Positions 1 through 41,953 of a stretch of 64,000 nt of DNA are shown here, in pieces. The stretch's first letter is position 1. Each line of letters starts with the position of its first letter. Both the position numbers and the translations under genes were made by a program. The notes beneath the pieces were generated by a model, which ran no database searches, had not been told where the DNA came from, and was given only the letters and a program-made list of their open reading frames with translations. The DNA is taken from assembly GCA_038049695.1 (NCBI GenBank), contig CP142460.1:38063501-38127500 (forward strand), in the 5' to 3' direction. This DNA comes from Cinnamomum chago (taxonomy: Eukaryota > Streptophyta > Magnoliopsida > Laurales > Lauraceae).

Positions 1-89
1 TGTTGTAGAATCTTTGAATCCGATGTCGATCCTTCCCATCCAGCACAGATATACTGAAAACACATATCAAATGATACAACAGTCATAAC
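1..89 (-). pseudogene. PIF/Harbinger transposase, C-terminal part (distal piece)
   Basis: Read on the minus strand this segment continues the transposase found at 12925-13627; the two are separated only by the family A insertion. Across the junction the reading runs through SQNVMTVVSFDM to FQYICAGWEGSTSDSKIL. This matches the conserved stretch of PIF/Harbinger (HARBI1-like) DDE nucleases, where an FDM-x-F-x-Y-x-x-AGWEGS-x-xDS pattern follows the first catalytic Asp. The remaining C-terminus lies left of the window. The protein would cut and join DNA at Harbinger ends together with the Myb-like ORF1 protein. It is a pseudogene because of the insertion and two frameshifts upstream. Confidence 0.85.
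85..89. repeat. Target site duplication ATAAC, left
   Basis: ATAAC directly precedes the first family A LTR (TGTTAGG...) and recurs at 12920-12924 directly after the last LTR (...CTTACA). Only one duplication flanks the whole three-LTR array. Confidence 0.93.
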
Positions 90-483
90 TGTTAGGAATT
101 TTCTAGATTGCAATTTGATGGATGCATTATCATTCAAAGCATCATTTGATTTACACACTTGCATTGGTTTTAAATAAACTTGAAATCTTGTTTTATTCAT
201 GCATTGCTTTTAAGATTTGTAATAGTATTGATTTATGCATGATTTGTTTTTTCATCTTGGATGCATTTGATTTAGAAAAGAGTTTTCAAGAAATCAAGCA
301 AGCCTTTGTTTTAAAAGTTTTGAATCTTTTTAGGCTTTTTATGTCATGTTTTAAAAACCATTAGAATCTTTAAAACATGTTTTCCAAGCTTGATTTAGTG
401 GCCAAAAGGTCCCCCAAAGAAATAACTTTGAAATGACAAAAGTTGGATTTTTTGTCAAAAGGGGGGTTGTCCCGGCAGTGTCG

Positions 484-613
484 TCGGTCGACCGAGAGGC
501 AGGTCTCGGTCGACCGAGACAACTGCAGGCAAAAATTGCCTGGGAGCACCAACGGTCAGAAATATGACCGTTGTGTGTTCTCGGTCGACCGAGGCCTGTT
601 TCTCGGTCGACCG
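484..613. repeat. Four CTCGGTCGACCGAG-type palindromes in the family A LTR
   Basis: GTCGAC cores lie at 487-492, 509-514, 584-589 and 605-610, each within a 12-14 bp perfect palindrome of the form CTCGGTCGACCGAG. Between the second and third is an inverted repeat CAACGGTCA / TGACCGTTG (550-558 with 565-573). The cluster ends about 30 bp upstream of the TATA box, so it lies in U3. It is CpG-rich in otherwise AT-rich DNA. The same cluster recurs at about 5794-5923 and 11103-11232. Confidence 0.9.
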
Positions 614-639
614 AGAACTAGCCGTTGGCCACTTTTCCC

Positions 640-647
640 TATAAATA
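640..647 (+). promoter_or_regulatory. TATA box of the family A LTR
   Basis: TATAAATA within CCCTATAAATATGAG, just downstream of the palindrome cluster. It is the likely core promoter for element transcription and recurs at 5950 and 11259. Confidence 0.7.
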
Positions 648-805
648 TGAGTTCTTTCCCTTGCCAAAAGTTGGGAATTTTTAACCCCTCCTTGAGAGGA
701 TTTGAGGCATATCAAAAGGGAAAAGAACCAAGGGATGAAGGGGAAGATTAGGAAAGCTAAAGCTTGGATTAATGAAGTTAAACCACCAAGTAGGCTCTTC
801 CTTTC

Positions 806-1400
806 TTAATCATATGTTTTCATGCTTTGTTTTATTTTTGGTAAATCATTTCTAGCATGATAAACTATGTTTGTGTTGTGTCCTTAACATGTTTTATGTT
901 TTGAGTTGATTTATTATTTTGGATACAACACCATGTGATTCAATTTAAGTAGTACTTAACTTTGGTAAATCTAAGTAGATCATGTTAATGAAAAACCTTT
1001 GAAATCATATGTAACATGATCCATATACTTGGTTGAATCTTTGGTTGTTGTTTTTCCTTCATGAGAAAATCACTTTCAAAACTATCTTATGTTTTGGACT
1101 CAACCTCTTTACAAATCATATGTTTTCATGTTTTGCTTTATCATTGGTAAATCTTAGTAACATGTTAATCTATGATTTGTTGTATCCTTAGCATATTCTA
1201 TATTTTGAATAGATCTATTGTTTTGGATACATCACCATTGATTCATCAAAGTAGTACTTAACTTTGGAAAATCTAAGTAGATCATGTTAATGAAATATGT
1301 AACATGATTCATATACTTTGTTGAATCTTTGGGTGTTGTTTTTCCATCATAAGAAAATCTTTTTCAAATGTATCTTATGTTTTGGATTCAACATGTTTAC
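806..1400 (+). repeat. About 300-bp imperfect tandem duplication inside the LTR
   Basis: The words CATATGTTTTCATG, TTGGTAAATC, GTAGTACTTAACTTTGG, AAGTAGATCATGTTAATG and GTAACATGAT occur in the same order at about 806-1105 and 1112-1400, offset by about 300 bp. A partial third start (ACAAATCATATG) follows at 1402. It is present in all three LTRs. Confidence 0.75.
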
Positions 1401-1917
1401 AAATCATATGTGTATTATTGTTTTAATGTTTCACAACTTGCTTCACTTTGATAGGTAAATCATTTTCAAGTTGTATTTATAATTACATATGATTTGTCCC
1501 CTAATTTCAATCAAATCAATTTTTATGTTTTGAGCTTCATTGATGATTTGATTGACATCCCTATGCATCACATGTTTAGAGCTAATCCATTTCATACAAC
1601 TTGTGTAACTTTGATATCATTAACAAGTTGTTACTTTTAACATGTGATTGCATTGCTTCCTCAATCATAAATGTTTTTGAGCTAAAACTTTCAAAAGCCT
1701 TAGGCTTACATTTATGAACTTTCATTTTCAAAATGATTGAGGATCACACACACACACTTCATTTGTTTTCATCTTTGCATTCATAGTGTGAGTGTGTATT
1801 TGTATTTCACTTCCATATCCGCCTATTATAAGAGGCATTGTAATGAGCTTAATAGAATCTCCATCAAGTGTATTAAAGACACTATCTTAGTGAGATAACC
1901 AACCTTGTGGTTGAAGA

Positions 1918-2050
1918 GGTTATTGCTTAGCCTATAAAAGCATAATGGATAGGTTGATGTTAAGCCTTGAAAAACATCAATGTAAGGTTATTGCTTAGCC
2001 TTGGAAAGCATATTGTAAAGGTTATTGCTTAGCCTATTGAAAAGCATAAA
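1918..2050 (+). repeat. Short tandem repeat built on GGTTATTGCTTAGCC
   Basis: GGTTATTGCTTAGCC followed by a short variable stretch and AAAGCAT occurs three times, from 1918, 1985 and 2019. A degenerate TTAAGCCTTGAAAAACAT lies between the first two. It is present in all three LTRs, near the U5 side. Confidence 0.75.
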
Positions 2051-2302
2051 TAGTGGAAATCCGGTGGGGTGTTGGATCACAAGCCGGTAGTGGATGTAGG
2101 CATTGAGGCCGAACCACTATAAATCCTTGTGTGATGGTGCTTGCTTTGTGGTGATTGTTTATATTAGCTTCCGCATATTGTTTGATAATCATCACTTGTG
2201 ACTAGTTGGTTTTAAAGAAGTTAAAATTGTTAAAATTGGTCATAATTGGAGCTCACCCTATTCACCCCCCCTCTAGGGTTCGGATCCCCATGGACTTACA
2301 AG

Positions 2303-2313
2303 TGGTATCAGAG
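2303..2313 (+). other. Primer-binding site, family A, internal copy 1
   Basis: TGGTATCAGAG begins two bases after the LTR end. It complements the 3' end of plant initiator tRNA-Met, the usual primer for minus-strand DNA synthesis in copia and many gypsy elements. The second internal copy has it at 7613-7623. Confidence 0.9.
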
Positions 2314-2451
2314 AGGGTTACTCCATATTAGGGCTTAACAACCCGGAGTTGATCCTTGCTAGATTAGAACCCTAGTGTTGTGTTTTTATTGCATATCTTT
2401 TTAAAGATTTCCACTATGATTGAAAATGATATTTTTCCCTAGCCTCATTGC

Positions 2452-4622
2452 ACCACTCTAAGACTTTTCCAAGTTATATCTTCTAGAGTTGGTGAGTCCT
2501 CAAAGTGATCTCTCAAGGACACATTTTCAAGACCTTAGGTGTATTTTCAAAGGTAGACTATTTGAGTAACCTTAAGGCCTTGATACCCCTAGACCAACCT
2601 ATGCTTTTTAGTTATATCTTTTTGTTGGTCATGTTACATTTGCATTTTGTTTCTTTATAGTCACATCTTTTAAAATGCAATGTTTCTTTGTGATCATTTG
2701 ATTTTGTCTTCATGAACTTTTATAGTTATATCTCATGGTTTTCAAAATCCCTTGATTGCAATTTTTTTTTTTTTCATGATGGATTTGCATGTTGTTCATT
2801 TAGTAATATCTCTTATTGTGCATATCTATTCATGATCAATTGATTGTGATTACAAATGCTTTCTAGCTAGTTTTTCATGATCAATTGATGTTGGAAAATC
2901 ATTTGATGATTGTCATAATTATATCCTTTTTGAATCAAATGATTTGAATCTATTTAAGTTTTCCATTGATTTTCAAGTTATATCTCTTGATATGGAAATT
3001 TGTAAGTGTCTATTGTTTTTAGATATTGAAAACTTTACAATAGTACACTTCTTGTTTTTCAAAGTCACTTGCTCTTAATTCTATAAATGATTCTTTGTTG
3101 AAATTTCATACATTGAAGTGATTTGAAAAACTTTGGAAAATGTTCTAAGCTTTATTAGTTATATTTATAGAAGCATTTTCCTTGAATTTATTTCCTTGTG
3201 CATAATTATGATTGTATCATTTGGAAGGAAATAATTCTTACAAACAATTTGCATCTTTGCTCTTTGAGTTACATTCTTTATGCAAATTGATTTTGTTGTC
3301 TTACATTGCATGGTTGGATATGATATCATTGATTTGCATATTTGTGCCTAACTTGGTATATTCTCATTAATGCATTTTGATGATTGTTTATGTGCTTTAT
3401 AGTAAAATCTTGTAATTGAGCTTTTTAAGTACATATGTGATTTTATGTGCTAAGTTCATTTGGTTTAAACCACATATCCTTTTCCATTGTATTGTAAGCT
3501 TAGTACATTTGCTAAGAGTGGAGATGTTACATGATAGCTTATTGGATCATTTTAGATGAATTGGAATTAAACCATTGTTCTTAATAGGTATATCCATTTA
3601 TGTGGTCCATCTTCATCTTTATGTGATCCATGATGTCTCTCTAACTTCATACCTTCTTGTGCTTACTTAGTTATACTCTTTATTGATGATATGGTATGAG
3701 TTAGATCTTGAGTGTTGATTGATCCTCTCTATGCAAATGTCAAATTGTTCTATGTATGATTGTGATCTTAGTTATATTTGTTGAAACCATACTAGAACTC
3801 AAATCCATCCTCTATGCTTTCTAGTCATTTCTTTTTGGATGGTTATGATGTTGATTCATGTATATGCTATAAGTGATATCATACTAATACATGTTTCAAC
3901 TTCATAGTAGTGATCTTGATCATATGAAACTCTTTGAAATCCATTCCTCATATTTCTATGTGTTTGATGGATAACTTAGATGTTGAATTCATATGATTTA
4001 GTCACTTTATAAATTGCATGCATTTCAAAGTCATATCTTTTTGCATTGCAATTTCTCTTGTTCATCACTATGCTCAATAGTTATATCTTTAAAAGTGATG
4101 AATATGCATTTATGATGCTTGATGGAATTTTGTCACATTCTTGCTCTTTATCATGTTATCAAATTCAATTGGTTTCATTTGGTATAATGTTTGATTGATT
4201 TGATTTCTTGTGAATGTGATAAATCTTGTGTGCATTGGATTGAACTTGATAAGTAATATGATTGTTCCATGTCACACACCATTAGCATCATAATGTTCAT
4301 GTTGCCACCTCTTTTGCTCTCATAGGTATATCTCATGACCACCATGTTTATGTGTTCATAATATTGGTTGGTTATTAGTTGAGGTTGGCTTCATGTTTGA
4401 ATTTCTTTTCACTCTTTCATGCACCTTAATAAGTCATATTTATTGATTGAATGAAATGATTTTCAAAATCTTACATAGCATATGATTTTCTTAAGTAATA
4501 TTGATTGATGCTATGTTTGAGTAAACCCCATATCATGGATAGCTCTAATTTGGATTTTTCCTAATAGGTATATTTTTAAATCCATTTTAGAGTGATTGAT
4601 TTAAATAGTCATATCCTAAATC
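2452..4622 (+). repeat. Chain of more than 20 hairpins with variable stems and a shared loop motif
   Basis: Successive inverted repeats of mostly 7-15 bp, each with its own stem sequence. Clear examples (5' arm / 3' arm): 2592-2598/2624-2630; 2640-2648/2672-2680; 2896-2907/2934-2945; 2960-2966/2992-2998; 3004-3016/3037-3050; 3055-3070/3116-3130; 3135-3147/3168-3181; 3184-3197/3225-3237; 3245-3254/3280-3289; 3445-3454/3499-3508; 3641-3653/3693-3704; 4011-4022/4042-4054; 4061-4069/4094-4102; 4473-4481/4508-4516; 4543-4557/4578-4592; 4598-4603/4617-4622. Many loops hold variants of AGTTATATCTT. The function is unknown; the second internal copy repeats the whole chain. Confidence 0.82.
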
Positions 4623-5027
4623 TCAATTGGTATTCTTTGTCTTTCCAATTGATATCCATGATGGCTTTTCCCATAGACCTTGCTTTCTTTTGGCAATTTG
4701 ATCATATGAGCTTGATAGTTAAATGAATCTAATCCTTTCTTTGAAGTTGACCCTCACTTGGTTAAACCATCTTCTTCTTGTACCTAATAGTTAAATCTTT
4801 GTCAAAAGTTTGACAAAAGAAGAGAATGGATTGAGGGGGAGTGTAAACCTTCATAGGAAGTATTAGTTGTGATCAAATTGACCCTAGGATTGCCTTTGAA
4901 CCCTTAGAGACTACTACCTCACATGATAGCCTGTTATGGATTTCATCTTCGATTTCATTTGTTAACAGGTGCTACTAATGGTATTTTCCTTGTTTCATGT
5001 GTGTAGGTACCTTTGCAATTTAATGGC

Positions 5028-5399
5028 AAAGGGGGAGAAATTATGCAAGTTCTCAAAAGGGTGAAGAGAAAGTCCAAGCTTCCAAAGGGGAGAGTTGTGT
5101 ATGATCTTCTACAAAGGGAGAGAATGCATACCTTGCCAAAGGGAGAAAGAGGCATGGTCAAAGGGGGAGAGCTAATAGAAGAAACAAAGCTTGGAGCTAA
5201 AGAATGTGCTTGGCAGAAGAAAGAAAGCTTGAAGGTTGATCAAGCTCCAAGCATCATGAAGATTGAAGTCCAAGAGCCCAAGCTATGAGAAGAAGCATCC
5301 AAGAAGATTTCAAGCCTTGTCCAGCTGAGGGGGAGCTGAAGACTAAGTGTGTATTGTCAGTGGTGAGTGTGTTTGCCATCAAATTGCAAAGGGGGAGAT
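5028..5399 (+). repeat. Multiple polypurine tracts ending in the PPT of family A
   Basis: CAAAGGGGGAGA-like tracts recur near 5028, 5083, 5112, 5138, 5158 and finally 5388-5399 (AAAGGGGGAGAT), the last abutting the 3' LTR at 5400. GAGGGGGAG also occurs near 4833 and 5327. The final tract is the expected plus-strand primer. Multiple tracts of this kind are a known feature of Sirevirus copia elements. Confidence 0.75.
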
Positions 5400-5431
5400 T
5401 GTTAGGAATTTTCTAGATTGCAATTTGATGG
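5376..5431. repeat. 14-bp inverted repeat spanning the PPT/3' LTR junction
   Basis: CCATCAAATTGCAA (5376-5389) is perfectly complementary to TTGCAATTTGATGG (5418-5431). The 28-bp loop contains the PPT and the first bases of the LTR. The same pairing occurs at 10685-10698 with 10727-10740. Confidence 0.9.
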
Positions 5432-7610
5432 ATGCATTATCATTCAAAGCATCATTTGATTTACACACTTGCATTGGTTTTAAATAAACTTGAAATCTTG
5501 TTTTATTCATGCATTGCTTTTAAGATTTGTAATAGTATTGATTTATGCATGATTTGTTTTTTCATCTTGGATGCATTTGATTTAGAAAAGAGTTTTCAAG
5601 AAATCAAGCAAGCCTTTGTTTTAAAAGTTTTGAATCTTTTTAGGCTTTTTATGTCATGTTTTAAAAACCATTAGAATCTTTAAAACATGTTTTCCAAGCT
5701 TGATTTAGTGGCCAAAAGGTCCCCCAAAGAAATAACTTTGAAATGACAAAAGTTGGATTTTTTGTCAAAAGGGGGGTTGTCCCGGCAGTGTCGTCGGTCG
5801 ACCGAGAGGCAGGTCTCGGTCGACCGAGACAACTGCAGGCAAAAATTGCCTGGGAGCACCAACGGTCAGAAATATGACCGTTGTGTGTTCTCGGTCGACC
5901 GAGGCCTGTTTCTCGGTCGACCGAGAACTAGCCGTTGGCCACTTTTCCCTATAAATATGAGTTCTTTCCCTTGCCAAAAGTTGGGAATTTTTAACCCCTC
6001 CTTGAGAGGATTTGAGGCATATCAAAAGGGAAAAGAACCAAGGGATGAAGGGGAAGATTAGGAAAGCTAAAGCTTGGATTAATGAAGTTAAACCACCAAG
6101 TAGGCTCTTCCTTTCTTAATCATATGTTTTCATGCTTTGTTTTATTTTTGGTAAATCATTTCTAGCATGATAAACTATGTTTGTGTTGTGTCCTTAACAT
6201 GTTTTATGTTTTGAGTTGATTTATTATTTTGGATACAACACCATGTGATTCAATTTAAGTAGTACTTAACTTTGGTAAATCTAAGTAGATCATGTTAATG
6301 AAAAACCTTTGAAATCATATGTAACATGATCCATATACTTGGTTGAATCTTTGGTTGTTGTTTTTCCTTCATGAGAAAATCACTTTCAAAACTATCTTAT
6401 GTTTTGGACTCAACCTCTTTACAAATCATATGTTTTCATGTTTTGCTTTATCATTGGTAAATCTTAGTAACATGTTAATCTATGATTTGTTGTATCCTTA
6501 GCATATTCTATATTTTGAATAGATCTATTGTTTTGGATACATCACCATTGATTCATCAAAGTAGTACTTAACTTTGGAAAATCTAAGTAGATCATGTTAA
6601 TGAAATATGTAACATGATTCATATACTTTGTTGAATCTTTGGGTGTTGTTTTTCCATCATAAGAAAATCTTTTTCAAATGTATCTTATGTTTTGGATTCA
6701 ACATGTTTACAAATCATATGTGTATTATTGTTTTAATGTTTCACAACTTGCTTCACTTTGATAGGTAAATCATTTTCAAGTTGTATTTATAATTACATAT
6801 GATTTGTCCCCTAATTTCAATCAAATCAATTTTTATGTTTTGAGCTTCATTGATGATTTGATTGACATCCCTATGCATCACATGTTTAGAGCTAATCCAT
6901 TTCATACAACTTGTGTAACTTTGATATCATTAACAAGTTGTTACTTTTAACATGTGATTGCATTGCTTCCTCAATCATAAATGTTTTTGAGCTAAAACTT
7001 TCAAAAGCCTTAGGCTTACATTTATGAACTTTCATTTTCAAAATGATTGAGGATCACACACACACACTTCATTTGTTTTCATCTTTGCATTCATAGTGTG
7101 AGTGTGTATTTGTATTTCACTTCCATATCCGCCTATTATAAGAGGCATTGTAATGAGCTTAATAGAATCTCCATCAAGTGTATTAAAGACACTATCTTAG
7201 TGAGATAACCAACCTTGTGGTTGAAGAGGTTATTGCTTAGCCTATAAAAGCATAATGGATAGGTTGATGTTAAGCCTTGAAAAACATCAATGTAAGGTTA
7301 TTGCTTAGCCTTGGAAAGCATATTGTAAAGGTTATTGCTTAGCCTATTGAAAAGCATAAATAGTGGAAATCCGGTGGGGTGTTGGATCACAAGCCGGTAG
7401 TGGATGTAGGCATTGAGGCCGAACCACTATAAATCCTTGTGTGATGGTGCTTGCTTTGTGGTGATTGTTTATATTAGCTTCCGCATATTGTTTGATAATC
7501 ATCACTTGTGACTAGTTGGTTTTAAAGAAGTTAAAATTGTTAAAATTGGTCATAATTGGAGCTCACCCTATTCACCCCCCCTCTAGGGTTCGGATCCCCA
7601 TGGACTTACA
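5400..7610 (+). mobile_element. Family A LTR, copy 2 (shared, middle)
   Basis: This LTR serves as the 3' LTR of the first unit and the 5' LTR of the second. It is the same 2211-bp length as copy 1, with no differences noticed by eye, and carries all its internal features shifted by 5310 bp. Confidence 0.9.
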
Positions 7611-10600
7611 AGTGGTATCAGAGAGGGTTACTCCATATTAGGGCTTAACAACCCGGAGTTGATCCTTGCTAGATTAGAACCCTAGTGTTGTGTTTTTATT
7701 GCATATCTTTTTAAAGATTTCCACTATGATTGAAAATGATATTTTTCCCTAGCCTCATTGCACCACTCTAAGACTTTTCCAAGTTATATCTTCTAGAGTT
7801 GGTGAGTCCTCAAAGTGATCTCTCAAGGACACATTTTCAAGACCTTAGGTGTATTTTCAAAGGTAGACTATTTGAGTAACCTTAAGGCCTTGATACCCCT
7901 AGACCAACCTATGCTTTTTAGTTATATCTTTTTGTTGGTCATGTTACATTTGCATTTTGTTTCTTTATAGTCACATCTTTTAAAATGCAATGTTTCTTTG
8001 TGATCATTTGATTTTGTCTTCATGAACTTTTATAGTTATATCTCATGGTTTTCAAAATCCCTTGATTGCAATTTTTTTTTTTTCATGATGGATTTGCATG
8101 TTGTTCATTTAGTAATATCTCTTATTGTGCATATCTATTCATGATCAATTGATTGTGATTACAAATGCTTTCTAGCTAGTTTTTCATGATCAATTGATGT
8201 TGGAAAATCATTTGATGATTGTCATAATTATATCCTTTTTGAATCAAATGATTTGAATCTATTTAAGTTTTCCATTGATTTTCAAGTTATATCTCTTGAT
8301 ATGGAAATTTGTAAGTGTCTATTGTTTTTAGATATTGAAAACTTTACAATAGTACACTTCTTGTTTTTCAAAGTCACTTGCTCTTAATTCTATAAATGAT
8401 TCTTTGTTGAAATTTCATACATTGAAGTGATTTGAAAAACTTTGGAAAATGTTCTAAGCTTTATTAGTTATATTTATAGAAGCATTTTCCTTGAATTTAT
8501 TTCCTTGTGCATAATTATGATTGTATCATTTGGAAGGAAATAATTCTTACAAACAATTTGCATCTTTGCTCTTTGAGTTACATTCTTTATGCAAATTGAT
8601 TTTGTTGTCTTACATTGCATGGTTGGATATGATATCATTGATTTGCATATTTGTGCCTAACTTGGTATATTCTCATTAATGCATTTTGATGATTGTTTAT
8701 GTGCTTTATAGTAAAATCTTGTAATTGAGCTTTTTAAGTACATATGTGATTTTATGTGCTAAGTTCATTTGGTTTAAACCACATATCCTTTTCCATTGTA
8801 TTGTAAGCTTAGTACATTTGCTAAGAGTGGAGATGTTACATGATAGCTTATTGGATCATTTTAGATGAATTGGAATTAAACCATTGTTCTTAATAGGTAT
8901 ATCCATTTATGTGGTCCATCTTCATCTTTATGTGATCCATGATGTCTCTCTAACTTCATACCTTCTTGTGCTTACTTAGTTATACTCTTTATTGATGATA
9001 TGGTATGAGTTAGATCTTGAGTGTTGATTGATCCTCTCTATGCAAATGTCAAATTGTTCTATGTATGATTGTGATCTTAGTTATATTTGTTGAAACCATA
9101 CTAGAACTCAAATCCATCCTCTATGCTTTCTAGTCATTTCTTTTTGGATGGTTATGATGTTGATTCATGTATATGCTATAAGTGATATCATACTAATACA
9201 TGTTTCAACTTCATAGTAGTGATCTTGATCATATGAAACTCTTTGAAATCCATTCCTCATATTTCTATGTGTTTGATGGATAACTTAGATGTTGAATTCA
9301 TATGATTTAGTCACTTTATAAATTGCATGCATTTCAAAGTCATATCTTTTTGCATTGCAATTTCTCTTGTTCATCACTATGCTCAATAGTTATATCTTTA
9401 AAAGTGATGAATATGCATTTATGATGCTTGATGGAATTTTGTCACATTCTTGCTCTTTATCATGTTATCAAATTCAATTGGTTTCATTTGGTATAATGTT
9501 TGATTGATTTGATTTCTTGTGAATGTGATAAATCTTGTGTGCATTGGATTGAACTTGATAAGTAATATGATTGTTCCATGTCACACACCATTAGCATCAT
9601 AATGTTCATGTTGCCACCTCTTTTGCTCTCATAGGTATATCTCATGACCACCATGTTTATGTGTTCATAATATTGGTTGGTTATTAGTTGAGGTTGGCTT
9701 CATGTTTGAATTTCTTTTCACTCTTTCATGCACCTTAATAAGTCATATTTATTGATTGAATGAAATGATTTTCAAAATCTTACATAGCATATGATTTTCT
9801 TAAGTAATATTGATTGATGCTATGTTTGAGTAAACCCCATATCATGGATAGCTCTAATTTGGATTTTTCCTAATAGGTATATTTTTAAATCCATTTTAGA
9901 GTGATTGATTTAAATAGTCATATCCTAAATCTCAATTGGTATTCTTTGTCTTTCCAATTGATATCCATGATGGCTTTTCCCATAGACCTTGCTTTCTTTT
10001 GGCAATTTGATCATATGAGCTTGATAGTTAAATGAATCTAATCCTTTCTTTGAAGTTGACCCTCACTTGGTTAAACCATCTTCTTCTTGTACCTAATAGT
10101 TAAATCTTTGTCAAAAGTTTGACAAAAGAAGAGAATGGATTGAGGGGGAGTGTAAACCTTCATAGGAAGTATTAGTTGTGATCAAATTGACCCTAGGATT
10201 GCCTTTGAACCCTTAGAGACTACTACCTCACATGATAGCCTGTTATGGATTTCATCTTCGATTTCATTTGTTAACAGGTGCTACTAATGGTATTTTCCTT
10301 GTTTCATGTGTGTAGGTACCTTTGCAATTTAATGGCAAAGGGGGAGAAATTATGCAAGTTCTCAAAAGGGTGAAGAGAAAGTCCAAGCTTCCAAAGGGGA
10401 GAGTTGTGTATGATCTTCTACAAAGGGAGAGAATGCATACCTTGCCAAAGGGAGAAAGAGGCATGGTCAAAGGGGGAGAGCTAATAGAAGAAACAAAGCT
10501 TGGAGCTAAAGAATGTGCTTGGCAGAAGAAAGAAAGCTTGAAGGTTGATCAAGCTCCAAGCATCATGAAGATTGAAGTCCAAGAGCCCAAGCTATGAGAA

Positions 10601-10708
10601 GAAGCATCCAAGAAGATTTCAAGCCTTGTCCAGCTGAGGGGGAGCTGAAGACTAAGTGTGTATTGTCAGTGGTGAGTGTGTTTGCCATCAAATTGCAAAG
10701 GGGGAGAT
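7611..10708 (+). mobile_element. Family A internal region, copy 2
   Basis: This is a near-exact duplicate of 2301-5399, one base shorter because of a T-run near 8072. PBS, hairpin chain, purine tracts and the terminal PPT are all conserved. Confidence 0.9.
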
Positions 10709-12919
10709 TGTTAGGAATTTTCTAGATTGCAATTTGATGGATGCATTATCATTCAAAGCATCATTTGATTTACACACTTGCATTGGTTTTAAATAAACTT
10801 GAAATCTTGTTTTATTCATGCATTGCTTTTAAGATTTGTAATAGTATTGATTTATGCATGATTTGTTTTTTCATCTTGGATGCATTTGATTTAGAAAAGA
10901 GTTTTCAAGAAATCAAGCAAGCCTTTGTTTTAAAAGTTTTGAATCTTTTTAGGCTTTTTATGTCATGTTTTAAAAACCATTAGAATCTTTAAAACATGTT
11001 TTCCAAGCTTGATTTAGTGGCCAAAAGGTCCCCCAAAGAAATAACTTTGAAATGACAAAAGTTGGATTTTTTGTCAAAAGGGGGGTTGTCCCGGCAGTGT
11101 CGTCGGTCGACCGAGAGGCAGGTCTCGGTCGACCGAGACAACTGCAGGCAAAAATTGCCTGGGAGCACCAACGGTCAGAAATATGACCGTTGTGTGTTCT
11201 CGGTCGACCGAGGCCTGTTTCTCGGTCGACCGAGAACTAGCCGTTGGCCACTTTTCCCTATAAATATGAGTTCTTTCCCTTGCCAAAAGTTGGGAATTTT
11301 TAACCCCTCCTTGAGAGGATTTGAGGCATATCAAAAGGGAAAAGAACCAAGGGATGAAGGGGAAGATTAGGAAAGCTAAAGCTTGGATTAATGAAGTTAA
11401 ACCACCAAGTAGGCTCTTCCTTTCTTAATCATATGTTTTCATGCTTTGTTTTATTTTTGGTAAATCATTTCTAGCATGATAAACTATGTTTGTGTTGTGT
11501 CCTTAACATGTTTTATGTTTTGAGTTGATTTATTATTTTGGATACAACACCATGTGATTCAATTTAAGTAGTACTTAACTTTGGTAAATCTAAGTAGATC
11601 ATGTTAATGAAAAACCTTTGAAATCATATGTAACATGATCCATATACTTGGTTGAATCTTTGGTTGTTGTTTTTCCTTCATGAGAAAATCACTTTCAAAA
11701 CTATCTTATGTTTTGGACTCAACCTCTTTACAAATCATATGTTTTCATGTTTTGCTTTATCATTGGTAAATCTTAGTAACATGTTAATCTATGATTTGTT
11801 GTATCCTTAGCATATTCTATATTTTGAATAGATCTATTGTTTTGGATACATCACCATTGATTCATCAAAGTAGTACTTAACTTTGGAAAATCTAAGTAGA
11901 TCATGTTAATGAAATATGTAACATGATTCATATACTTTGTTGAATCTTTGGGTGTTGTTTTTCCATCATAAGAAAATCTTTTTCAAATGTATCTTATGTT
12001 TTGGATTCAACATGTTTACAAATCATATGTGTATTATTGTTTTAATGTTTCACAACTTGCTTCACTTTGATAGGTAAATCATTTTCAAGTTGTATTTATA
12101 ATTACATATGATTTGTCCCCTAATTTCAATCAAATCAATTTTTATGTTTTGAGCTTCATTGATGATTTGATTGACATCCCTATGCATCACATGTTTAGAG
12201 CTAATCCATTTCATACAACTTGTGTAACTTTGATATCATTAACAAGTTGTTACTTTTAACATGTGATTGCATTGCTTCCTCAATCATAAATGTTTTTGAG
12301 CTAAAACTTTCAAAAGCCTTAGGCTTACATTTATGAACTTTCATTTTCAAAATGATTGAGGATCACACACACACACTTCATTTGTTTTCATCTTTGCATT
12401 CATAGTGTGAGTGTGTATTTGTATTTCACTTCCATATCCGCCTATTATAAGAGGCATTGTAATGAGCTTAATAGAATCTCCATCAAGTGTATTAAAGACA
12501 CTATCTTAGTGAGATAACCAACCTTGTGGTTGAAGAGGTTATTGCTTAGCCTATAAAAGCATAATGGATAGGTTGATGTTAAGCCTTGAAAAACATCAAT
12601 GTAAGGTTATTGCTTAGCCTTGGAAAGCATATTGTAAAGGTTATTGCTTAGCCTATTGAAAAGCATAAATAGTGGAAATCCGGTGGGGTGTTGGATCACA
12701 AGCCGGTAGTGGATGTAGGCATTGAGGCCGAACCACTATAAATCCTTGTGTGATGGTGCTTGCTTTGTGGTGATTGTTTATATTAGCTTCCGCATATTGT
12801 TTGATAATCATCACTTGTGACTAGTTGGTTTTAAAGAAGTTAAAATTGTTAAAATTGGTCATAATTGGAGCTCACCCTATTCACCCCCCCTCTAGGGTTC
12901 GGATCCCCATGGACTTACA
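10709..12919 (+). mobile_element. Family A LTR, copy 3 (right end)
   Basis: The 2211-bp LTR ends ...GGACTTACA at 12919 and is followed at once by the ATAAC duplication and Harbinger coding sequence instead of a PBS. This fixes the right end of the array. Confidence 0.9.
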
Positions 12920-12924
12920 ATAAC
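12920..12924. repeat. Target site duplication ATAAC, right
   Basis: Perfect partner of 85-89. Removing the array and one copy rejoins the Harbinger transposase in a single frame across the junction. Confidence 0.93.
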
Positions 12925-15654: not shown

Positions 15655-15960
15655 CGCACCTAGTGGTCAGCGGACGGTCACCTGTCGGCTAGCCGTCTGG
15701 TGACTGGCGGTTAACCGTCAGATAACCGAACCGTCGCGATTACAATTCCAGAGAGCATTCTTGTCTTCCTAAAGACGCGGTCAGCCTCACGGTTAGCCAG
15801 CGGCTAACCGCCGAACCCATCGACGGCTTATCGCCAGCTAACCGAACTTATTCACGGTTACAATTCCAGTAAGCTGCATTCTGTCAGAGCAACAGCGGTC
15901 AGCCAGCGGCTAATCGCCGAACCAATCGGCAGCTGATCGCCAGTTAACCGTTAGGTGACC
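15655..15960. repeat. Palindrome cassette of family B (CGGCTAGCCG / CGGTTAACCG type)
   Basis: Perfect palindromes CGGCTAGCCG (15686-15695) and CGGTTAACCG (15708-15717) sit among many imperfect CGGCTAACCG and CGGTTAGCC words over about 300 bp. The start is marked by TTTCCCGCACCT near 15650. In the solo copies at 41954 and 51007 the equivalent place holds CCGATCGATCGG instead. Confidence 0.8.
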
Positions 15961-16944
15961 GAAATTACCCAGGAAAAATTGAAATGAAGAGAAATGGAAG
16001 GGGTTTTTGTCCCAATCATTTGTGAACCCTTTTAGAGAATGATGGGGACTGTTCACCTGGAGATGTGTATGAAGTCCGTTTGAGAAAGAAACCACATCAC
16101 GAAGATTCATTGAATGTTTTGAAATTATCAAGGTGTATAAGGAGCCCTGAATGTCTCCAAACTCAAGGAGTACCAAGTTGTTATTAAATCGACATACGGG
16201 ACCCCTACTCACCTTAAACAAATATTGAACCCAGTACTTGCCCGAAACTTCAAAAGTTTAATTGTATCCTCTTGTTTCCTGAGATTTAAACTACATGACT
16301 TGTTGTTCCCAAAAGCATTGAAATTGTACTTTGTAATACTTGCTAGCCCTAAGTGCATTGCCTGACATGAAATGGAAGTTGTGCCTTTGAGCACCCCCGC
16401 CTTGCCCATTCATTTATTGCACTTGATGTATTTTTATACATATCTTGATTTCGGTTATTTAACCTATGAGTCGGCACCACTAAGCTTGGATAACCCTGTT
16501 GGTCTGATCCACCGACTTGGAGATCCCCCTCTTGTCCTGCCAGCTGCAGTTTGGATCCCGATACCCGGTTATTACCGTGGTCTTGTCCCGATACTCTGGA
16601 TTGCTACCGTGGTTCCCGATGCCCGGCTCACTACCGTGGTCATGTCCCATATATTATATGTATGTGTATATATATTTCGTTGTTTCTCCTCACCTCGTGT
16701 GACTGAGATCAACGCCTTGATATTGCTTTGTCACTTCGGTGATAGAGGACTTAGCTTCGTGTGGTTTCCATCTTGCTAGTTCCCGATTCCTTGGATACCT
16801 TACATGTTTTATATTGCTTATATGTTTTCCAGTAAATGATTCATTTCTTTATGAAAGTTATTGTTTAAACAGGTTTTAATGTTTTACAAGGTAAATTCAA
16901 TTATTGTTATATTGTTTCTCGTTCCTTGGTACATTTATATGCAT

Positions 16945-17175
16945 TAAATGAATACCCGGTTTGTCGAATATCCATGTTTTTACATATGTTTTAAATGAAC
17001 ACTTGTTTTGCCAGATCTCTATTCTTACACATGTTTTAAAGGAACACTCGATTGTCAAATATCTTTGCTTTTATAGATGATGTAAATGAACATATGTTTT
17101 GTTAGATCTCCATGTTTTACTCATGCTTTAAATGAATACATGTTTTGTCAGAGATCCATAATTTTCCACCCGTTT
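16945..17175 (+). repeat. 46-bp tandem array in the family B LTR, about 5 units
   Basis: Units run AAATGAACAC-x-TGTTTTG-x-CAGATCTC-x-AT... and end near ATGTTTT, starting at about 16945, 16993, 17037, 17083 and 17129. Other family B LTRs have different numbers of units. Confidence 0.8.
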
Positions 17176-17793
17176 TAATTATATGTAGCCTTTGATCAAA
17201 TAGTATGAATTATCACATGTTTTATTTTTCAGCACATTTATTATCTTTTCACCGAGCTGCCAGACCGTCGTGTCTGACCCACTATTTTGGTATCCAGGTT
17301 CAGACTTCTCCGCCCTGAGCTGAGTGCTTTTGTTGGCTGTGGAGCCATGATTTGCACGTTGTTTTGTCGGCTATGTCATATAGACATTCAGCTTGACATC
17401 GGAGTTGCATCACATATGGGTAGTGGTTATTAGCTTGTCATTGTATGGCTTATATTAGCCTTTTCTTGGGATTCTTAATTAATGCACATTGATAATTTGT
17501 AATTCGAACATATATGGGAATGTAATATCCTGTTACTGTCAGCTTTGTACTTGGTTGTGATGGTTTATGCAGTCTGATATGATTCTTGATATAATAGCTA
17601 TATGCTAGCGGTTGAGTGCGACACAGAATCCGATGGCCACGGACTCCGAGTCGCAACGCCATGAAAGCTTCCGCAAAATATTTAGAGTGTCTTGGAATGT
17701 GTTGTCTTCACACACGCGGATCTTGGGAGAAAAGTATAATTATCCTTAATCCCATTCGCGCCCCCAAGGTTCTGGTTTGGGGGCGTGACAGAC

Positions 17794-23067: not shown

Positions 23068-26000
23068 TGTGAGACCCCGACCCCTAATTTCCTGGATTAG
23101 CCTTGTTTTATTTGTGGATTAGTTTCTCTAAGTGGGATTAGTGTTTGTTTGGTTGAATTTGTGAGCTAGAATGGTTTTTCACTAGTTTTGGGGAATTTTG
23201 AGAGCTAGTGAACCTAGACAGTGACCGTAAGGTCCTACTTGTTTTGCATGAACAACTTGGAGAGGTTCTTTGTGACTCCCAAAAATTCCCATTTTGGCTC
23301 CGTTTGACTTATCTCGTTAATCTCTACAACTTTCGTGGTGACCACTGTTGGAATATAGGTGGGCCATTCAGATAGGTTTCAAAAACTTTTGATCCACTTA
23401 ATGCAGGGATCAACTATCTAGAAGGCAATAAACCCAATCCAGGATGCAATCCCTCAAACTCATAAACCATGTACAACAACATAACCTATTTAGAAGATAG
23501 AAAATAGCACCTAAACATGCAACCACGAAATCTACAATATACAAAGATGTAGATTATACCTTTGGAGCTTAGTTGTGCTCTAATGAAGAATTTGAATTCT
23601 TTCTTTGATGATGAACACCTTCACTTAATCAAATCAGCATCTCCATCACCTTTTGATCTTCCAAGCTATGACTCGTATCGGATTCTCTTTTCTCAGGAAG
23701 ATGGTGGAATCTCCAAGAGAAAAACCCTAGAGGAAACTAGAAGATAAACTAGAAGAGGGAGAGGAAGAGGAGTGTGCAACACTTGTACAAAAGGGGCTTG
23801 GGCGTGAATTCCAAGATGGAATTAATGCAATGGGACGTCCAAGGCACTCCTCTCCCCTTTTTATAGCACTTAAGCAACCACCTCATTCTAATTGAAATAG
23901 AAGTCTTACTTCCACAACAATTAGTTGCTTACTAAATCACTATTAGAAGTCTTACTCCAAATATGATTAGTAACTTTCTCTTTTTCTAATTAAAATAGAA
24001 GTCTCACTTCCATTAATAATTAGTAACTTACTATTAACACTATTAGAAGTCTCACTTCAAATAGAAATAATAACTTTCTATTTCCTTTTAGAGTTCTACT
24101 ATAATTAGTATCTTTCTAATATCTTGGGCTAGCGTGGGGACCACTAGGGATTCCTTAGAAAGCTGGCTCCAACTGGGACACGTGACCCCACATCTCATGT
24201 GCAATCTGGGCCCACAGTTAATTGCAAATAACTCCACTATATAAATGCAATTGCACTCCAGTCTTAGGAATAAATTACAATGAAGACCCTAAACTTCCAC
24301 ATTACCACAAGTAGGCCCCTCCATCTATATCCATGGATCAATTGGACTTGTCCACCAAATTAGATCCATATCTTATTATTCTTAAGCCCCAATTAATTAT
24401 AATGATCATTTGGTAACGATCCAATTAACTCTTAATTGGAATGGGTGCGCACTTACCAATGATAAATCCATTAATTGGCACAAGGGGATATTAAAGATAG
24501 ATTCCATCTTGACCATTGAATGTTCCCACAGCTCTACTACCACATACCCAAATCACCGAGGTGTTGACCTACAATTGGCCTCACTCATTGGTGACTCAAA
24601 GCAAATGAATAGATAGAAACTTGAGTTCATTAATGTCTCAGGATTATGAGCCTATTGCTAGGGAATTATGAGAGCAGACCTTAAAATAAAGACAGTGTAT
24701 ATAAGGTGCTTCTCATGGTCATTCAATACATCCAATGTACCAGCACCATGATCCAGAATCTTACATTCCGACGATCGAGACAAATCACACTATCTCATAG
24801 TGATCAAAGTGCTGCAACCTTATCAGATGAGATGTCCAACCTCATCACTGGTTGTGAAGATATTTAAGTATAAGATTTGCAATACATATCTCTTGTATGT
24901 GGATCTCATCAATACACATGTATTATATCTAATATACTTGTAGACTCCGGTTCATCTCATGAACCATTATGTCATTTGTATTGGTTATGTGCCAGTATAT
25001 AATTAAACACCATTCATCTCATGAAAGGAAAGCATGATTGTATTGATAAATAAAGAAATGAATCAATTTATTACATCATATACTTGGTATTGAGACCATC
25101 AAAACTAACAACGTCCCCATTCGAGACCCCGAAACCTGACTTTTCCGACTTCGAGGGCAAAACAATCTTTCTACACCAAATCTGGAACCAAATTTCGAGA
25201 TCTTAGAACCATGCCAAAATCATACTTTTTGAAAACTAAATTTTATGAGAAACATTTGTTTCTTCTTCGTCGAGTCCATCCGAGGCCCAGAAAGCCCAGT
25301 TCTTAGCGCATGTAATATTATTAGTTGTGGGCCCCACTTGAACCTTTAAATAATGGCCAAAACCCATGTTTTCTTCTTCACTCTTGCCCTCCACGAGATG
25401 GAGCACGCCTAGCCTTGCAACAACAGCTAACCGCCAGCTACAACAGCTAACCTTCGTCGCGGTTACAATTCCAGAGAGCATTCTTGTCTTCCTGAAGACG
25501 CGGTCAGCCTCACGATTAGCCAGCGGCTAACCGCCGAACCCATCGATGGCTTACCGCCAGCTAACCGAACTTATTCACGGTTACAATTCCAGTAAGCTGC
25601 ATTCTGTAAGAGCAACAGCGGTCAGCCAGCGGCTAATCGCCGAACCAATTGGCGGCTGATCGCCAGTTAACCGTTAGGTGACCGAAATTACCCAGGAAAA
25701 ATTGAAATGAAGAGAAATGGAAGGGGTTTTTGTCCCAATCATTTGTGAACCCTTTTAGAGAATGATGGGGACTGTTCACCTGGAGATGTGTATGAAGTCC
25801 GTTTGAGAAAGAAACCACATCACGAAGATTCATTGAATGTTTTGAAATTATCAAGGTGTATAAGGAGCCCTGAATGTCTCCAAACTCAAGGAGTACCAAG
25901 TTGTTATTAAATCGACATACGGGACCCCTACTCACCTTAAACAAATATTGAACCCAGTACTTGCCCGAAACTTCAAAAGTTTAATTGTATCCTCTTGTTT

Positions 26001-27512
26001 CCCGAGATTTAAACTACATGACTTGTTGTTCCCAAAAGCATTGAAATTGTACTTTGTAATACTTGCTAGCCCTAAGTGCATTGCCTGACATGAAATGGAA
26101 GTTGTGCCTTTGAGCACCCCCGCCTTGCCCGTTCATTTATTGCACTTGATGTATTTTTATACATATCTTGATTTCGGTTATTTAACCTATGAGTCGGCAC
26201 CACTAAGCTTGGATAACCCTGTTGGTCTGATCCACCGACTTGGAGATCCCCCTCTTGTCCTGCCAGCTGCAGTTTGGATCCCGATACCCGGTTATTACCG
26301 TGGTCTTGTCCCGATACTCTGGATTGCTACCGTGGTTCCCGATGCCCGGCTCACTACCGTGGTCATGTCCCATATATTATATGTATGTGTATATATATTT
26401 CGTTGTTTCTCCTCACCTCGTGTGACTGAGATCAACGCCTTGATATTGCTTTGTCACTTCGGTGAGAGAGGACTTAACTTCGTGTGGTTTCCATCTTGCT
26501 AGTTCCCGATTCCTTGGATACCTTACATGTTTTATATTGCTTATTTGTTTTCCAGTAAATGATTCATTTCTTTATGAAAGTTATTGTTTAAACAGGTTTT
26601 AATGTTTTACAAGGTAAATTCAATTATTGTTATATTGTTTCTCGTTCCTTGGTACACTTATATGCATTAAATGAATACCCGGTTTGTCGAATATCCATGT
26701 TTTTACATATGTTTTAAATGAACACTTGTTTTGCCAGATCTCTATTCTTACACATGTTTTAAAGGAACACTCGATTGTCAAATATCTTTGCTTTTATAGA
26801 TGATGTAAATGAACATATGTTTTGTTAGATCTCCATGTTTTACTCTTGCTTTAAATGAATACATGTTTTGTCAGAGATCCATAATTTTCCACCCGTTTTA
26901 ATTATATGTAGCCTTTGATCAAATAGTATGAATTATCACATGTTTTATTTTTCAGCACATTTATTATCTTTTCACCGAGCTGCCAGATCGTTGTGTCTGA
27001 CCCACTATTTTGGTATCCAGGTTCAGACTTCTCCGCCCTGAGCTGAGTGCTTTTGTTGGCTGTGGAGCCATGATTTGCACGTTGTTTTGTCGGCTATGTC
27101 ATATAGACATTCAGCTTGACATCGGAGTTGCATCACATATGGGTAGTGGTTATTAGCTTGTCATTGTATGGCTTATATTAACCTTTTCTTGGGATTTTTA
27201 ATTAATGCACATTGATAATTTGTAATTCGAACATATATGGGAATGTAATATCCTGTTACTGTCAGCTTTGTACTTGGTTGTGTGGTTTATGCAGTCTGAT
27301 ATGATTCTTGATATAATAGCTATATGCTAGTGGTTGAGCGCGACACGGAATCCGATGGCCACGGACTCCGAGTCGCAACGCCATGAAAGCTTCCGCAAAA
27401 TATTTAGAGTGTTTTGGAATGTGTTGTCTTCACACACGCGGATCTTGGGAGAAAAGTATAATTATCCTTAATGCCATTCGCGCCCCCAAGGTTCTGGTTT
27501 GGGGGCGTGACA
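23068..27512 (+). mobile_element. Family B 3' LTR, rearranged
   Basis: It matches the 5' LTR closely, with two large differences: a 1.77-kb family E solo LTR at 23346-25110, and loss of about 0.86 kb near 25420-25450 (corresponding to about 14860-15725 of the 5' LTR, including part of the palindrome cassette). The two LTRs differ by scattered substitutions, so this insertion is older than family A. Confidence 0.88.
23346..25110 (-). mobile_element. Family E (copia-like) solo LTR, minus strand
   Basis: 1765 bp, reading TGTTAGTTTTGATGG...CTATATTCCAACA on the minus strand. It matches the LTR at 41589-47182, which is followed by a TGGTATCAGAGCC PBS; that fixes its identity and orientation. The flanking pentamers differ (ACCAC and ACGTC), so the duplication is decayed or lost. 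The open frame at 24410-24616 is within the LTR. Confidence 0.82.
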
Positions 27513-27517: not shown

Positions 27518-28005
27518 CGCACATGATGTAGTAGTCGGGCATGGTCCTAGACCTATACATGCTGGCTCCAGGATGTGCCTGTGTTCCAAAATAATAACAA
27601 AGAAAAAAAATTATACTTACATTTCCCAAAAAGATTTTATAAATTGAATAAAGATCTCACCGCTATGTAATCATCCCACACCCCTGCTTCCGTAGTGACT
27701 TTTTTCCTTCCTTCGTCCCATCCAAACCCACTTAAGTTTAGCATAGCCTTCATCGCGCTATACCATTTTTTATAGCTCTTCAACCTATTCTTCAACTTAT
27801 CTTTGCTGAATTTTGGCCCAAACTTTGTTTGCATTTCCTTTGATATCAGACCCCATCCCTCCGAGGTAAACCCCCCATGAATAACTTTCCCTTCTTTGCA
27901 CATTTCAAGCATGATGTGGAGGAGCGCTACATCATTTGTGCCCATCCACTTCATGTTTCTCAAAGTAGATCCTCTTATGGCTTGAGAGCTACTTTTTGAG
28001 ACATC
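27518..28005 (-). pseudogene. PIF/Harbinger ORF1, Myb/SANT-like DNA-binding domain
   Basis: Minus-strand exons 27661-28005 and 27518-27578 flank an 82-bp GT-AG intron (27579-27660). The first exon carries the Myb/SANT-like (Myb_DNA-bind_3 type) domain: NMKWMGTNDVALL, then GFTSEGWGLI, then KLKNRLKSYKKWYSAM, LSGFGWDE and VWDDYIA. After splicing, AHPGASMYRSRTMPDYY and CEIFG continue the typical domain end. The frame then passes into 14283-13820 on the other side of family B. A likely splice acceptor (TGTAG) at 28006 suggests an upstream first exon that I did not identify. The protein would bind Harbinger terminal sequences. Confidence 0.85.
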
Positions 28006-39928: not shown

Positions 39929-41588
39929 TGATGAGTTATGAAAAGTGCATATTTTCATACACATTTTGGGCCATTTTAAGGACTTATTGATATTAAAAAG
40001 CCTCATTCAGTGTCAAATCATGTTCTTATGCATTTAGGATTCATTGTAGTGTATTCATGCATAATTTGCTAAAAAAATAATACTTTTAGCATAAATTTAT
40101 GAAACTTGCTATTTTTGGAAATTTATTTTTGGAAAGTTAGTTATTTTTGGTGCATCAAGTAGGGTACCACGCATAGTACATTCAAATTCCTCACATGTGA
40201 TTATTGTTGAATTTGTTTATTTTAATTTGTGTAGGAGAAATCAAGAATGGGACTCATGCACATTGGTGAATTTTGAGAGAGATCAAGTGTAGGACATCTT
40301 TCATGGTGGACCCACATATCTTGGTATTTTTGGAGAGTTTGAAAAAGTCAACAATGGAAAGTTAGATTTGGAGTTTCAAGATCAAGAGAGGAAACTTCAG
40401 ATTTGGTAAGATCTAATGCTTATTAAGTTTGAAATTCAAAAATAAAAAAAGAAAATGTGCTAGAAGAGTTGACTAGTCAATCAAATAAACTTGGAAGCAA
40501 ACCAAAGATAGAATGAGTGTCAAGAAATAAAGAAGGAAAGATCCCAAGACCCCTTTGGACGTCCACATGGGTCCCACACACCCCATTGCACAACTAACAT
40601 AGAACCTTCCATACATGTACAATTATTCTCGGACTTTTTAGGGGCAGCAAGATTAAAATGACTATAACTCTCATTCCCACCATTGGATCAGTGCAATATA
40701 CCCACCGTTAGAAATCTCTTTTCAAGTATATATATGTGGAGCCTAAGATTGCGTCAATCGGAGATAAAAAGATGGAGATATGACCTCTTTAAGTTAGTGC
40801 TATAATTTTTACTCGGGATTGCAATTTTGCACATGGAAAGCACCAAAAATCTCTCACTCACCTTGCTATTTCTTTGAAGACTTGTTGGCCAAGGAATGGA
40901 CTTACCATGCAAAGAAGATTTCATGCTACAAACTTGGAACAAAGAAGGAAAGAAAGAGAGCAAAAATCTATAAATTGAAGGCATAGACATCCATCTCCTC
41001 TCATGGGAAGATAGACCACTTCTCTCTAGAATTCATACTACACTCCATCCTCTCCCTCTCTCTTTCTCTCCATTGGAGTCCTCAAGGAGATTTGGCCTAG
41101 AAATCGCTCTACACTCTTGGGTTTTTCATCTAGAAGAGGCTTCTCTTCCTAGTATGTAATTTTCTTTGTTTATTTTCTCATCTTATGTAAAGACTTTGCA
41201 TACTAGTAAAAGTGTTACTTTGTTTTTTCAAATTTTCTTTTCATGTCCTTGATTGATTGGTGCTTGATTTGGGTTCTTTACTTGTTGGTGTTTGGATTGA
41301 CAACCCAAGGGCCCTAAGAGCATGATTCAAATTATGAACCCGCTTAGAATAGAATTTTGAGAGAAAAGAATATACTTCCGCATATTTAAATTTATGTTCT
41401 TCCACACATTTAAATTTCCGTTAAAACCACACATTTACTTTTCTTTTCTTTTTTTTACCACACATTTAAATTCTTGAATTTTTGTTTATTTTGTTTATTT
41501 TCATGATCAATTCAAGTTTATGTCTATTTTTGCATAGTTTATTGTTGGAACTAGTTAGCATTGCATGCATATTCATATTAGTGGAGTC
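39929..41588 (+). mobile_element. Family C LTR, plus strand, 5' part
   Basis: It starts TGATGAGTTATGAAAAGTGC and aligns with the reverse complement of 34136-36684. It is cut at 41588 by the family E LTR. AAATTTAAAT/CACACATTTAAAT words at 41385-41470 match the reversed words at 32460-32500. No gene is seen; minus frames 40754-40990 and 41466-41663 are unrecognised. Confidence 0.65.
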
Positions 41589-41948: not shown

Positions 41949-41953
41949 GTGCT
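41949..41953. repeat. Target duplication GTGCT, left
   Basis: Perfect partner at 45869-45873; flanks the family B solo LTR. Confidence 0.93.

Follow-up and report, generated by a model that had tools for sequence, protein, structure and literature searches.

An LTR element of Cinnamomum chago, in which a chain of hairpins takes the place of gag-pol, raises the question of which kind of element it is, whether its hairpins exceed what base composition would give, and what could make use of them. The element was analysed within a stretch of 64,000 nucleotides (hereafter the window). All structures given here are predicted ones, and the comparisons with published work refer to the accessible parts of the cited sources. 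In plants, how protein-less elements recruit the copying machinery of others is, to our knowledge, largely open.

Layout and class of the element

The element spanned 90-12919 of the window as a tandem LTR-INT-LTR-INT-LTR structure, and its internal region was present as two copies, both inside this one insertion (Table 1). Since the three LTRs were identical and the internal regions were one T apart, the insertion is young or was recently homogenised. The LTR matched only its own three copies, and an autonomous partner was not found within the window. No gag-pol frame was present in the internal region, as had been predicted, and no stop-to-stop frame of at least 90 aa in the array; the only internal frames of at least 90 aa were two (93 and 94 aa), both in the 3' linker. 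Relatives of the linker frame were three peptides with 70-92% identity over 49-60% of the frame, and one peptide with 56% identity was related to the LTR frame (ENA contigs of 506-863 bp); protein relatives of an array frame were not found.

On the basis of sequence, the element is classified as LARD-like and non-autonomous, and as derived from a Sirevirus (Ty1/copia). Its LARD character lies in the LTR of 2211 bp and the long non-coding internal domain of 3.1 kb, with a longest frame of 94 aa. Because gag-pol is absent, the element offers neither the RT nor the large gag by which the Sirevirus genus is tested, and it is therefore regarded as a derivative and not as a full member.

The cis-signals were compared feature by feature with the Sirevirus description of Bousios 2010 (PMC2829016). 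The CGG-CCG palindrome CGGTCGACCG, situated upstream of the TATA box at 640, was the same word as the RM of the Vitis Sirevirus in Table 3 of that paper, in which RM is present in 13 of 21 published Sirevirus elements. Only exact copies were counted; each LTR had four and the internal region had none, compared with eight or more per element in Sireviruses in which RM is present (PMC2829016). The C-rich integrase signal of Sireviruses sits about 21 bp from the LTR end, and their junction is CA/A(T or G)TGG followed by the PBS TATCAGAGC (PMC2829016); the junction here was CA/AGTGG followed by TATCAGAGA, in which the ninth of nine PBS bases deviates. Five PPT octamers AGGGGGAG were found per internal region, the last one starting 10 bp upstream of the LTR and running into the attachment site (AGGGGGAG-AT/TG at 5390-5401). 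The arms of the inverted repeat (5376-5389 and 5418-5431) were 14 nt long and perfect, with the right arm 18 bp inside the LTR, compared with 28 on average in Sireviruses (PMC2829016).

Table 1. Positions of the features in the window; P values of single hairpins were obtained with fixed geometry and 300 flank shuffles.
Feature	Position	Strand	Remark
Target-site duplication ATAAC	85..89, partner 12920-12924		same 5-mer at both outer edges of the tandem element
5' LTR, 2211 bp	90..2300	+	identical copies 5400-7610 and 10709-12919; BLASTN 100% over 2211 bp
Four palindromic motifs CGGTCGACCG (485, 507, 582, 604), Sirevirus RM type	485..613		in U3
TATA box	640..647	+	transcript expected to begin about 30 nt downstream
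R-U5 hairpin-rich part; some loops with GGTAAATC (hairpins 811-869, 1111-1180, 1433-1474)	676..1800	+
C-rich integrase signal TTCACCCCCCCTCTAGGG	2261..2278	+	22 bp from LTR end; compared with PMC2829016
5' LTR/PBS junction CA/AGTGG/TATCAGAG, tRNA-Met type	2299..2313	+	compared with PMC2829016
Hairpin chain with shared loop motif AGTNATATC	2451..4830	+	second copy about 7761-10139
Motif hairpin, motif 2472	2451..2494	+	P 0.003
Motif hairpin, motif 2610	2592..2630	+	P 0.027
Motif hairpin, motif 2659	2636..2683	+	0/300 shuffles
Motif hairpin, motif 2802	2774..2835	+	P 0.003
Motif hairpin, motif 2917, 12 bp perfect stem	2896..2945	+	P 0.017
Motif hairpin, motif 2976	2955..3002	+	P 0.11, alone not significant
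Motif hairpin, motif 3157	3135..3181	+	P 0.007
Motif hairpin, motif 3267	3242..3293	+	0/300 shuffles
Motif hairpin, motif 3770	3747..3798	+	0/300 shuffles
Motif hairpin, motif 3823	3805..3842	+	P 0.13, alone not significant
Motif hairpin, motif 3872, 19 bp, two interruptions	3842..3908	+	0/300 shuffles
Motif hairpin, motif 4029	4011..4054	+	P 0.007
Motif hairpin, motif 4079	4059..4104	+	P 0.013
Motif hairpin, motif 4252	4227..4278	+	P 0.107, alone not significant
Motif hairpin, motif 4494	4473..4516	+	P 0.003
Motif hairpin, motif 4566	4538..4597	+	0/300 shuffles
Linker with five exact PPT octamers AGGGGGAG (4834, 5030, 5162, 5328, 5390)	4834..5397	+
Inverted repeat CCATCAAATTGCAA / TTGCAATTTGATGG, enclosing the terminal PPT, the AT/TG attachment site and the start of the 3' LTR	5376..5431
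Second internal region of the tandem element	7611..10708	+	one T more or less in a T tract than the first

Density and limits of the hairpin chain

The hairpin chain is real and non-random. Among its 34 hairpins (2452-4830), 16 were strong (score of at least 22), whereas block shuffles averaged 2.75 and never exceeded 8. The score of the non-overlapping chain was 314, compared with 170 ± 16 (maximum 201.5) in 100 block-wise shuffles and 160 ± 13 in 15 plain shuffles. With a loop of 6-60 nt allowed, the region contained 10 perfect stems of at least 9 bp, with 1.1 expected and a maximum of 4 in 40 dinucleotide shuffles, and each of four 2.4-kb control regions of the window contained at most two of them. 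One control region (40000-42400) had an excess of shorter stems (10 of at least 8 bp, with 3.0 expected and a maximum of 7), and its chain score of 183 was within the shuffles (mean 148, maximum 198.5).

Folding was done with 600-nt tiles and 60 shuffles each. The z values of the array were -6.2, -5.5, -2.4 and -4.4 on the plus strand and -6.2, -4.6, -4.6 and -3.6 on the minus strand, and eight control tiles of the same length had no fold excess on either strand (z from -1.4 to +1.3). The 250-nt tiles were noisier, with a mean z of -2.3 over 17 array tiles (9 below -2) and of -0.4 over 51 control tiles (sd 1.35, 8 below -2, 2 below -3); no enrichment was seen at 3626-3875 or in the tiles between 4501 and 5125. 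The excess over dinucleotide shuffles that the original prediction called for was thus obtained (z from -2.4 to -6.2 in the array), and the six stems quoted there were all recovered in place or a few bases off.

The chain had also been said to fill the internal region. The array is indeed enriched, and the R-U5 part of the LTR (about 676-1800) is enriched too, with z values of -5.0 at 676-1240 and -7.1 at 1241-1800. Enrichment was weak at 1801-2300 (z -1.8), and it was absent from U3 at 90-470 (z -0.9; chain score 36, compared with 32 ± 7), from the surroundings of the PBS at 2301-2451 (no fold excess, z 0.0) and, as regards hairpins, from the PPT-rich linker (z +1.0 on the plus strand and -0.4 on the minus strand). 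The 250-nt tile at 251 (z -2.6) reaches into the U3 palindromes. No Rfam family reached its gathering score at 1-5400; a microRNA-family match over the U3 palindromes (21.3 bits, with a gathering score of 86; E 0.43) was taken as chance.

Because it lies downstream of the TATA box at 640, the structured part is inside the expected transcript, and RNA or cDNA is therefore favoured over chromosomal DNA as the working form. Stem interruptions had no G-U bias (GT 1, AC 1; very few in all), and since both strands fold similarly as well, RNA and single-stranded DNA were not distinguished by structure. Both observations would suit an array that acts in single-stranded cDNA, by RT pausing or by template switching and recombination, with the loop motif described below as a DNA pause or recognition site, and the tandem arrangement suggests recombination or a complex insertion at the locus. 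However, tandem LTR elements are reported to be frequent in plants (PMC11899658), so that the tandem form needs no special array, and a pause array requires no common loop word at a near-constant place. Action in cDNA is accordingly considered quite improbable.

A common loop word on unrelated stems

Many loops contained one and the same word on the plus strand, AGTNATATC, spaced about 9 and 5 nt from the 5' and 3' arms, respectively, and words of this type ranked top in an unbiased k-mer scan. The loops are therefore not all unrelated, which the original prediction had missed. With at most one mismatch, AGTTATATC occurred in the internal region 16 times on the plus strand and never on the minus strand (0.6 expected), and never on the plus strand of the LTR; with at most two mismatches, the internal counts were 30 and 12, respectively (9.4 expected). 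The core over 25 sites, which were picked by eye among the 30 matches (2301, 2504, 3186, 3699 and 4648 being excluded), was A G T N A T A T C, T-rich before and with TTT after it, and position 3 of the motif was variable (T15, C5, A4, G1). The loop word was contained, with at most two mismatches, in 18 of the 34 chain hairpins. Although the chain was picked without the motif, 18 of 29 motif matches lay fully within chain loops, where 7.2 were expected from loop coverage. The predicted unpaired fraction of the 16 best motif 9-mers was 0.52 (an estimate in which window averaging gave slightly negative values at some sites), compared with 0.25 for GC-matched 9-mers (0/10,000 permutations) and 0.33 ± 0.05 once the flanks were shuffled.

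The coupling of motif and stem was estimated with free and with fixed loop geometry. With free geometry, the mean helix score was 20.0 around 30 motif matches, 18.8 at random array positions and 17.3 with shuffled flanks. With a fixed geometry, which was chosen after the free-geometry result and on the same data, the stem had P < 0.05 at 13 of 29 matches with at most two mismatches (Fisher P about 1e-12, neighbouring matches being partly dependent) and at 5 of 60 random array 9-mers; the remaining 16 motif matches had no significant stem. A scan of the window with slightly narrower geometry gave a stem score of at least 18 around 14 of 29 plus-strand and 2 of 12 minus-strand matches in the array, 3 of 18 plus-strand and 0 of 22 minus-strand matches in the LTR, and 0 of 93 plus-strand and 3 of 103 minus-strand matches outside the element. 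In R-U5 the related word GGTAAATC was in a hairpin with P < 0.05 at 3 of 7 matches (Fisher P 0.0016), with a geometry looser than that of the array and with two of the three positives being paralogues in duplicated units.

Arms paired with their own partner at 14 of 29 sites, compared with 56 of 812 swapped combinations, and none of 20,000 permutations was as good. When the 3' flanks were exchanged between motif sites at fixed geometry, scores of at least 22 dropped from 12/29 to 12/812. Composition is excluded by the shuffles together with the swapped partners. That the array is ordinary T-rich filler with hairpins formed by chance might be thought of from its 43% T, from the unenriched 250-nt tiles and from the control region with excess 8-bp stems, but dinucleotide shuffles, block shuffles and swapped partners all speak against it, and it is hardly credible.

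The inner arms of different hairpins were 0.26-0.27 identical (background 0.29) and the loop core 0.74, in a set of 16 hairpins chosen at P 0.13 or better, where the core figure is inflated by motif selection. The stems are thus unlike one another, as had been predicted; the description as tandem repeats applies to the related loop core and fails for the unrelated inner arms. The central claim, that pairing is preserved under diverse stems, gained support from the shuffles and from the swapped partners (0/20,000 permutations), and such pairing points to selection on structure; random formation of palindromes would hardly give a common loop word at so constant a place. Hairpins 3805-3842 and 2592-2630 had a 26-nt stretch that was 88% alike (family D15), with different stems.

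A mutational origin was weighed at this point: the inverted repeats would have arisen wherever the recurring motif prompted fold-back synthesis or template switching, and the array would passively record these events. Inner arms that are unrelated between hairpins would be the direct outcome of repeated independent fold-back. The copies of the motif must, however, pre-exist, which leaves the loop word unexplained, and the stems of the 16 motif hairpins (6-19 bp) look maintained and not freshly copied, 12 of the 16 being interrupted once or twice and most of these still strong. The mutational origin is judged improbable.

Changed pairs were followed in the duplicated units of R-U5. With single-sequence structures, 6 were kept and 13 broken, and 11 were kept and 9 broken in the reverse direction, which gives no clear excess of conserved pairing overall. 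All 7 changed pairs (2 of them changed on both sides) were retained in the alifold consensus, but nothing is claimed from this, because the consensus structure was chosen using both sequences. One clear double change was found in an R-U5 motif hairpin (C825-G855 in one unit and T1131-A1160 in the other, alignment columns converted by hand), in a stem that by eye also has one lost pair.

Related arrangements were looked for by pattern searches. The PPT/LTR pattern gave no viral loci, a slightly wider one gave four bacterial loci (judged from their titles to be chance), and a three-motif pattern gave five viral loci; the PBS string was in none of these nine. Motif matches were in hairpins at 3 of 4 in L002, at 6 of 62 on the plus strand and 4 of 100 on the minus strand in L005, and at 0 or 1 per strand in the remaining loci. 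Mimicry of the PBS was dismissed: the motif resembles AGTGGTATC, but its position 4 is A in 25/25 sites, where the PBS has G.

Possible readers of the array and known systems

The preferred reading, with a probability of about 0.4, is that of a Sirevirus derivative whose loop array recruits a trans-acting RNA-binding partner, for which the Gag of an autonomous Sirevirus is the likeliest candidate. The hairpin chain (16 strong hairpins plus weaker ones) would be an RNA domain that replaces gag-pol and acts as RNA. Its stems would be interchangeable scaffolds, free to change while pairing holds, each of which would keep a loop of about 17-29 nt open and present the word AGUNAUAUC single-stranded. 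Many copies of the loop along one transcript would provide avidity for one trans-acting protein that binds the loops, probably the Gag of an autonomous Sirevirus helper, and the borrowed machinery would pack and reverse-transcribe the non-coding RNA to the benefit of its packaging. Gag is proposed because it would be the most useful reader for an element without proteins. Precedents for this reading are mini-Ty1 elements without functional gene products, which are mobilised by proteins in trans (PMC4974528), and hepatitis B RNA, in which several stem-loops carry a common loop motif for the core protein (RGAG loops; PMC7612645). Since Ty1 has its packaging sequences in the 580 nt next to the 5' end (PMC4974528), the additional 2.4 kb should be unneeded for packaging as such. 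A narrower version, in which the array is a multivalent RNA docking site that captures the Gag of autonomous Sireviruses in competition with their own genomes, is tentative and rather doubtful.

The main rival to Gag is a host RNA-binding protein, through which the array would help to export, stabilise, localise or silence a long non-coding transcript. Constitutive transport elements serve some retroviruses comparably. The structural evidence (multivalent loops that lie past the TATA box, both in R-U5 and in the internal part) fits a host protein equally, yet no named host factor is indicated, and this reader is considered unlikely. Among the uses put forward in the original prediction, packaging or the use of partner proteins in trans is the best candidate reading of the predicted structure. 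Dimerisation lost ground: TATAGTTATA is self-complementary with two wobbles, and the variation at position 3 (T15, C5, A4, G1) would, by argument and not by computation, disrupt the self-pairing of kissing loops. The production of small RNAs was likewise weakened, because the 16 motif hairpins have only 6-19 bp.

If the preferred reading is right, the likely recognition signal can be read in the sequence, and a test of it would require no more than one protein and short RNAs. Such elements could also be sought by this structural signature, whereas annotation that relies on coding domains would overlook them.

The element shares with Sireviruses multiple PPTs, AT/TG, the inverted repeat, the RM word, the TATA box, CA/AGTGG with a tRNA-Met PBS and the integrase signal, and differs from them in having neither gag nor pol (PMC2829016). 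Its LTR is 2.2 kb, compared with 1.28 kb on average, its TATA box is in the first third of the LTR and not near the middle, and a hairpin chain with AGTNATATC loops is absent from the Sirevirus description in the accessible part of that source (PMC2829016). The LTRs of maize Sireviruses contain palindrome clusters with strong predicted secondary structure (Bousios 2016, cited in PMC10760457). Those palindromes follow one consensus in a cis-region of the LTR, whereas here the stems differ, the loops are common and the hairpins are in R-U5 and the internal region; the RM palindromes of the present element are in U3, separate from the chain. LARDs are LTR elements without gag, pol and env that are said to specify well-conserved RNA secondary structures (PMC7215508), and the element resembles them as an LTR element without gag-pol and with RNA secondary structure, here a predicted one. 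With Ty1 mini-elements it shares LTR RNA without functional gene products; those are laboratory deletion constructs, and a hairpin array is not mentioned for them in the accessible part of PMC4974528.

The kind of element is thus a known one. We know of no report of a LARD with a chain of independent hairpins and a common loop word, and of no LTR element in which gag-pol has given way to hairpins whose stems vary freely around one loop word. A hairpin-chain LTR element was not among the matches listed for the full-text literature (e.g. the best 15 of 6,468), in a collection that leaves out most subscription papers.

A further likeness in architecture is viral. The RNA of satellite tobacco necrosis virus has stem-loops with a common loop motif as dispersed packaging signals. 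The present element has, in its predicted structure, many hairpins with a common loop motif along the RNA, as in that virus and in hepatitis B RNA (PMC7612645), where several stem-loops share one motif. The loops of both viruses bind core or coat protein in assays, whereas those described here are predicted loops of a non-coding RNA. If the proposed recruitment holds, the array would be to a natural retrotransposon what dispersed packaging signals are to these viruses.

Repeats and palindromes in the LTR

Whole hairpins recur in the LTR through the duplication in R-U5, the units of which were 83% identical. In U3, pairwise pairing of the four CGGTCGACCG palindromes is possible and is predicted to give very strong hairpins of 17 bp each; this site is CpG-rich (CpG observed/expected 1.16), with the TATA box directly 3' of it.

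Features of the window
Feature	Position	Strand	Detail
Tandem LTR retrotransposon	90-12919		two units, middle LTR common to both
CGGTCGACCG palindromes in U3	479-618		n=4
Diverged tandem duplication in R-U5	808-1411, plus copies		~300 bp
Linker frame with public-data relatives	5007-5285	+	peptide identity 70-92%
Second pair of long direct repeats	15732-17790 and 25455-27512		98.8% identical
Myb/SANT-like DNA-binding domain frame	27640-28005	-	PF12776, E 1.3e-18
BED zinc finger frame, then second frame	36669-37923	+	PF02892, E 2.5e-7

Possible other elements in the window

The second pair of long direct repeats is likely to represent the LTRs of another element, and parts of these repeats were matched by inverted sequences inside 41954-44392 and 51007-53690. 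The Myb/SANT-like frame lies a short way outside the repeat ending at 27512. The frame following the BED zinc finger frame gave no significant Pfam match and was taken by eye to be hAT-transposase-like; the two are perhaps a hAT-type transposon.

The tandem element and its relatives

Relatives of the frame in the linker between hairpin chain and next LTR were carried by ENA contigs of 506-780 bp, and thus the element family or a relative is present in other public data. The outer target duplication of the two-unit element was intact and its divergence was approximately nil. Tandem LTR retrotransposons sharing a middle LTR are described as frequent in plants in PMC11899658.
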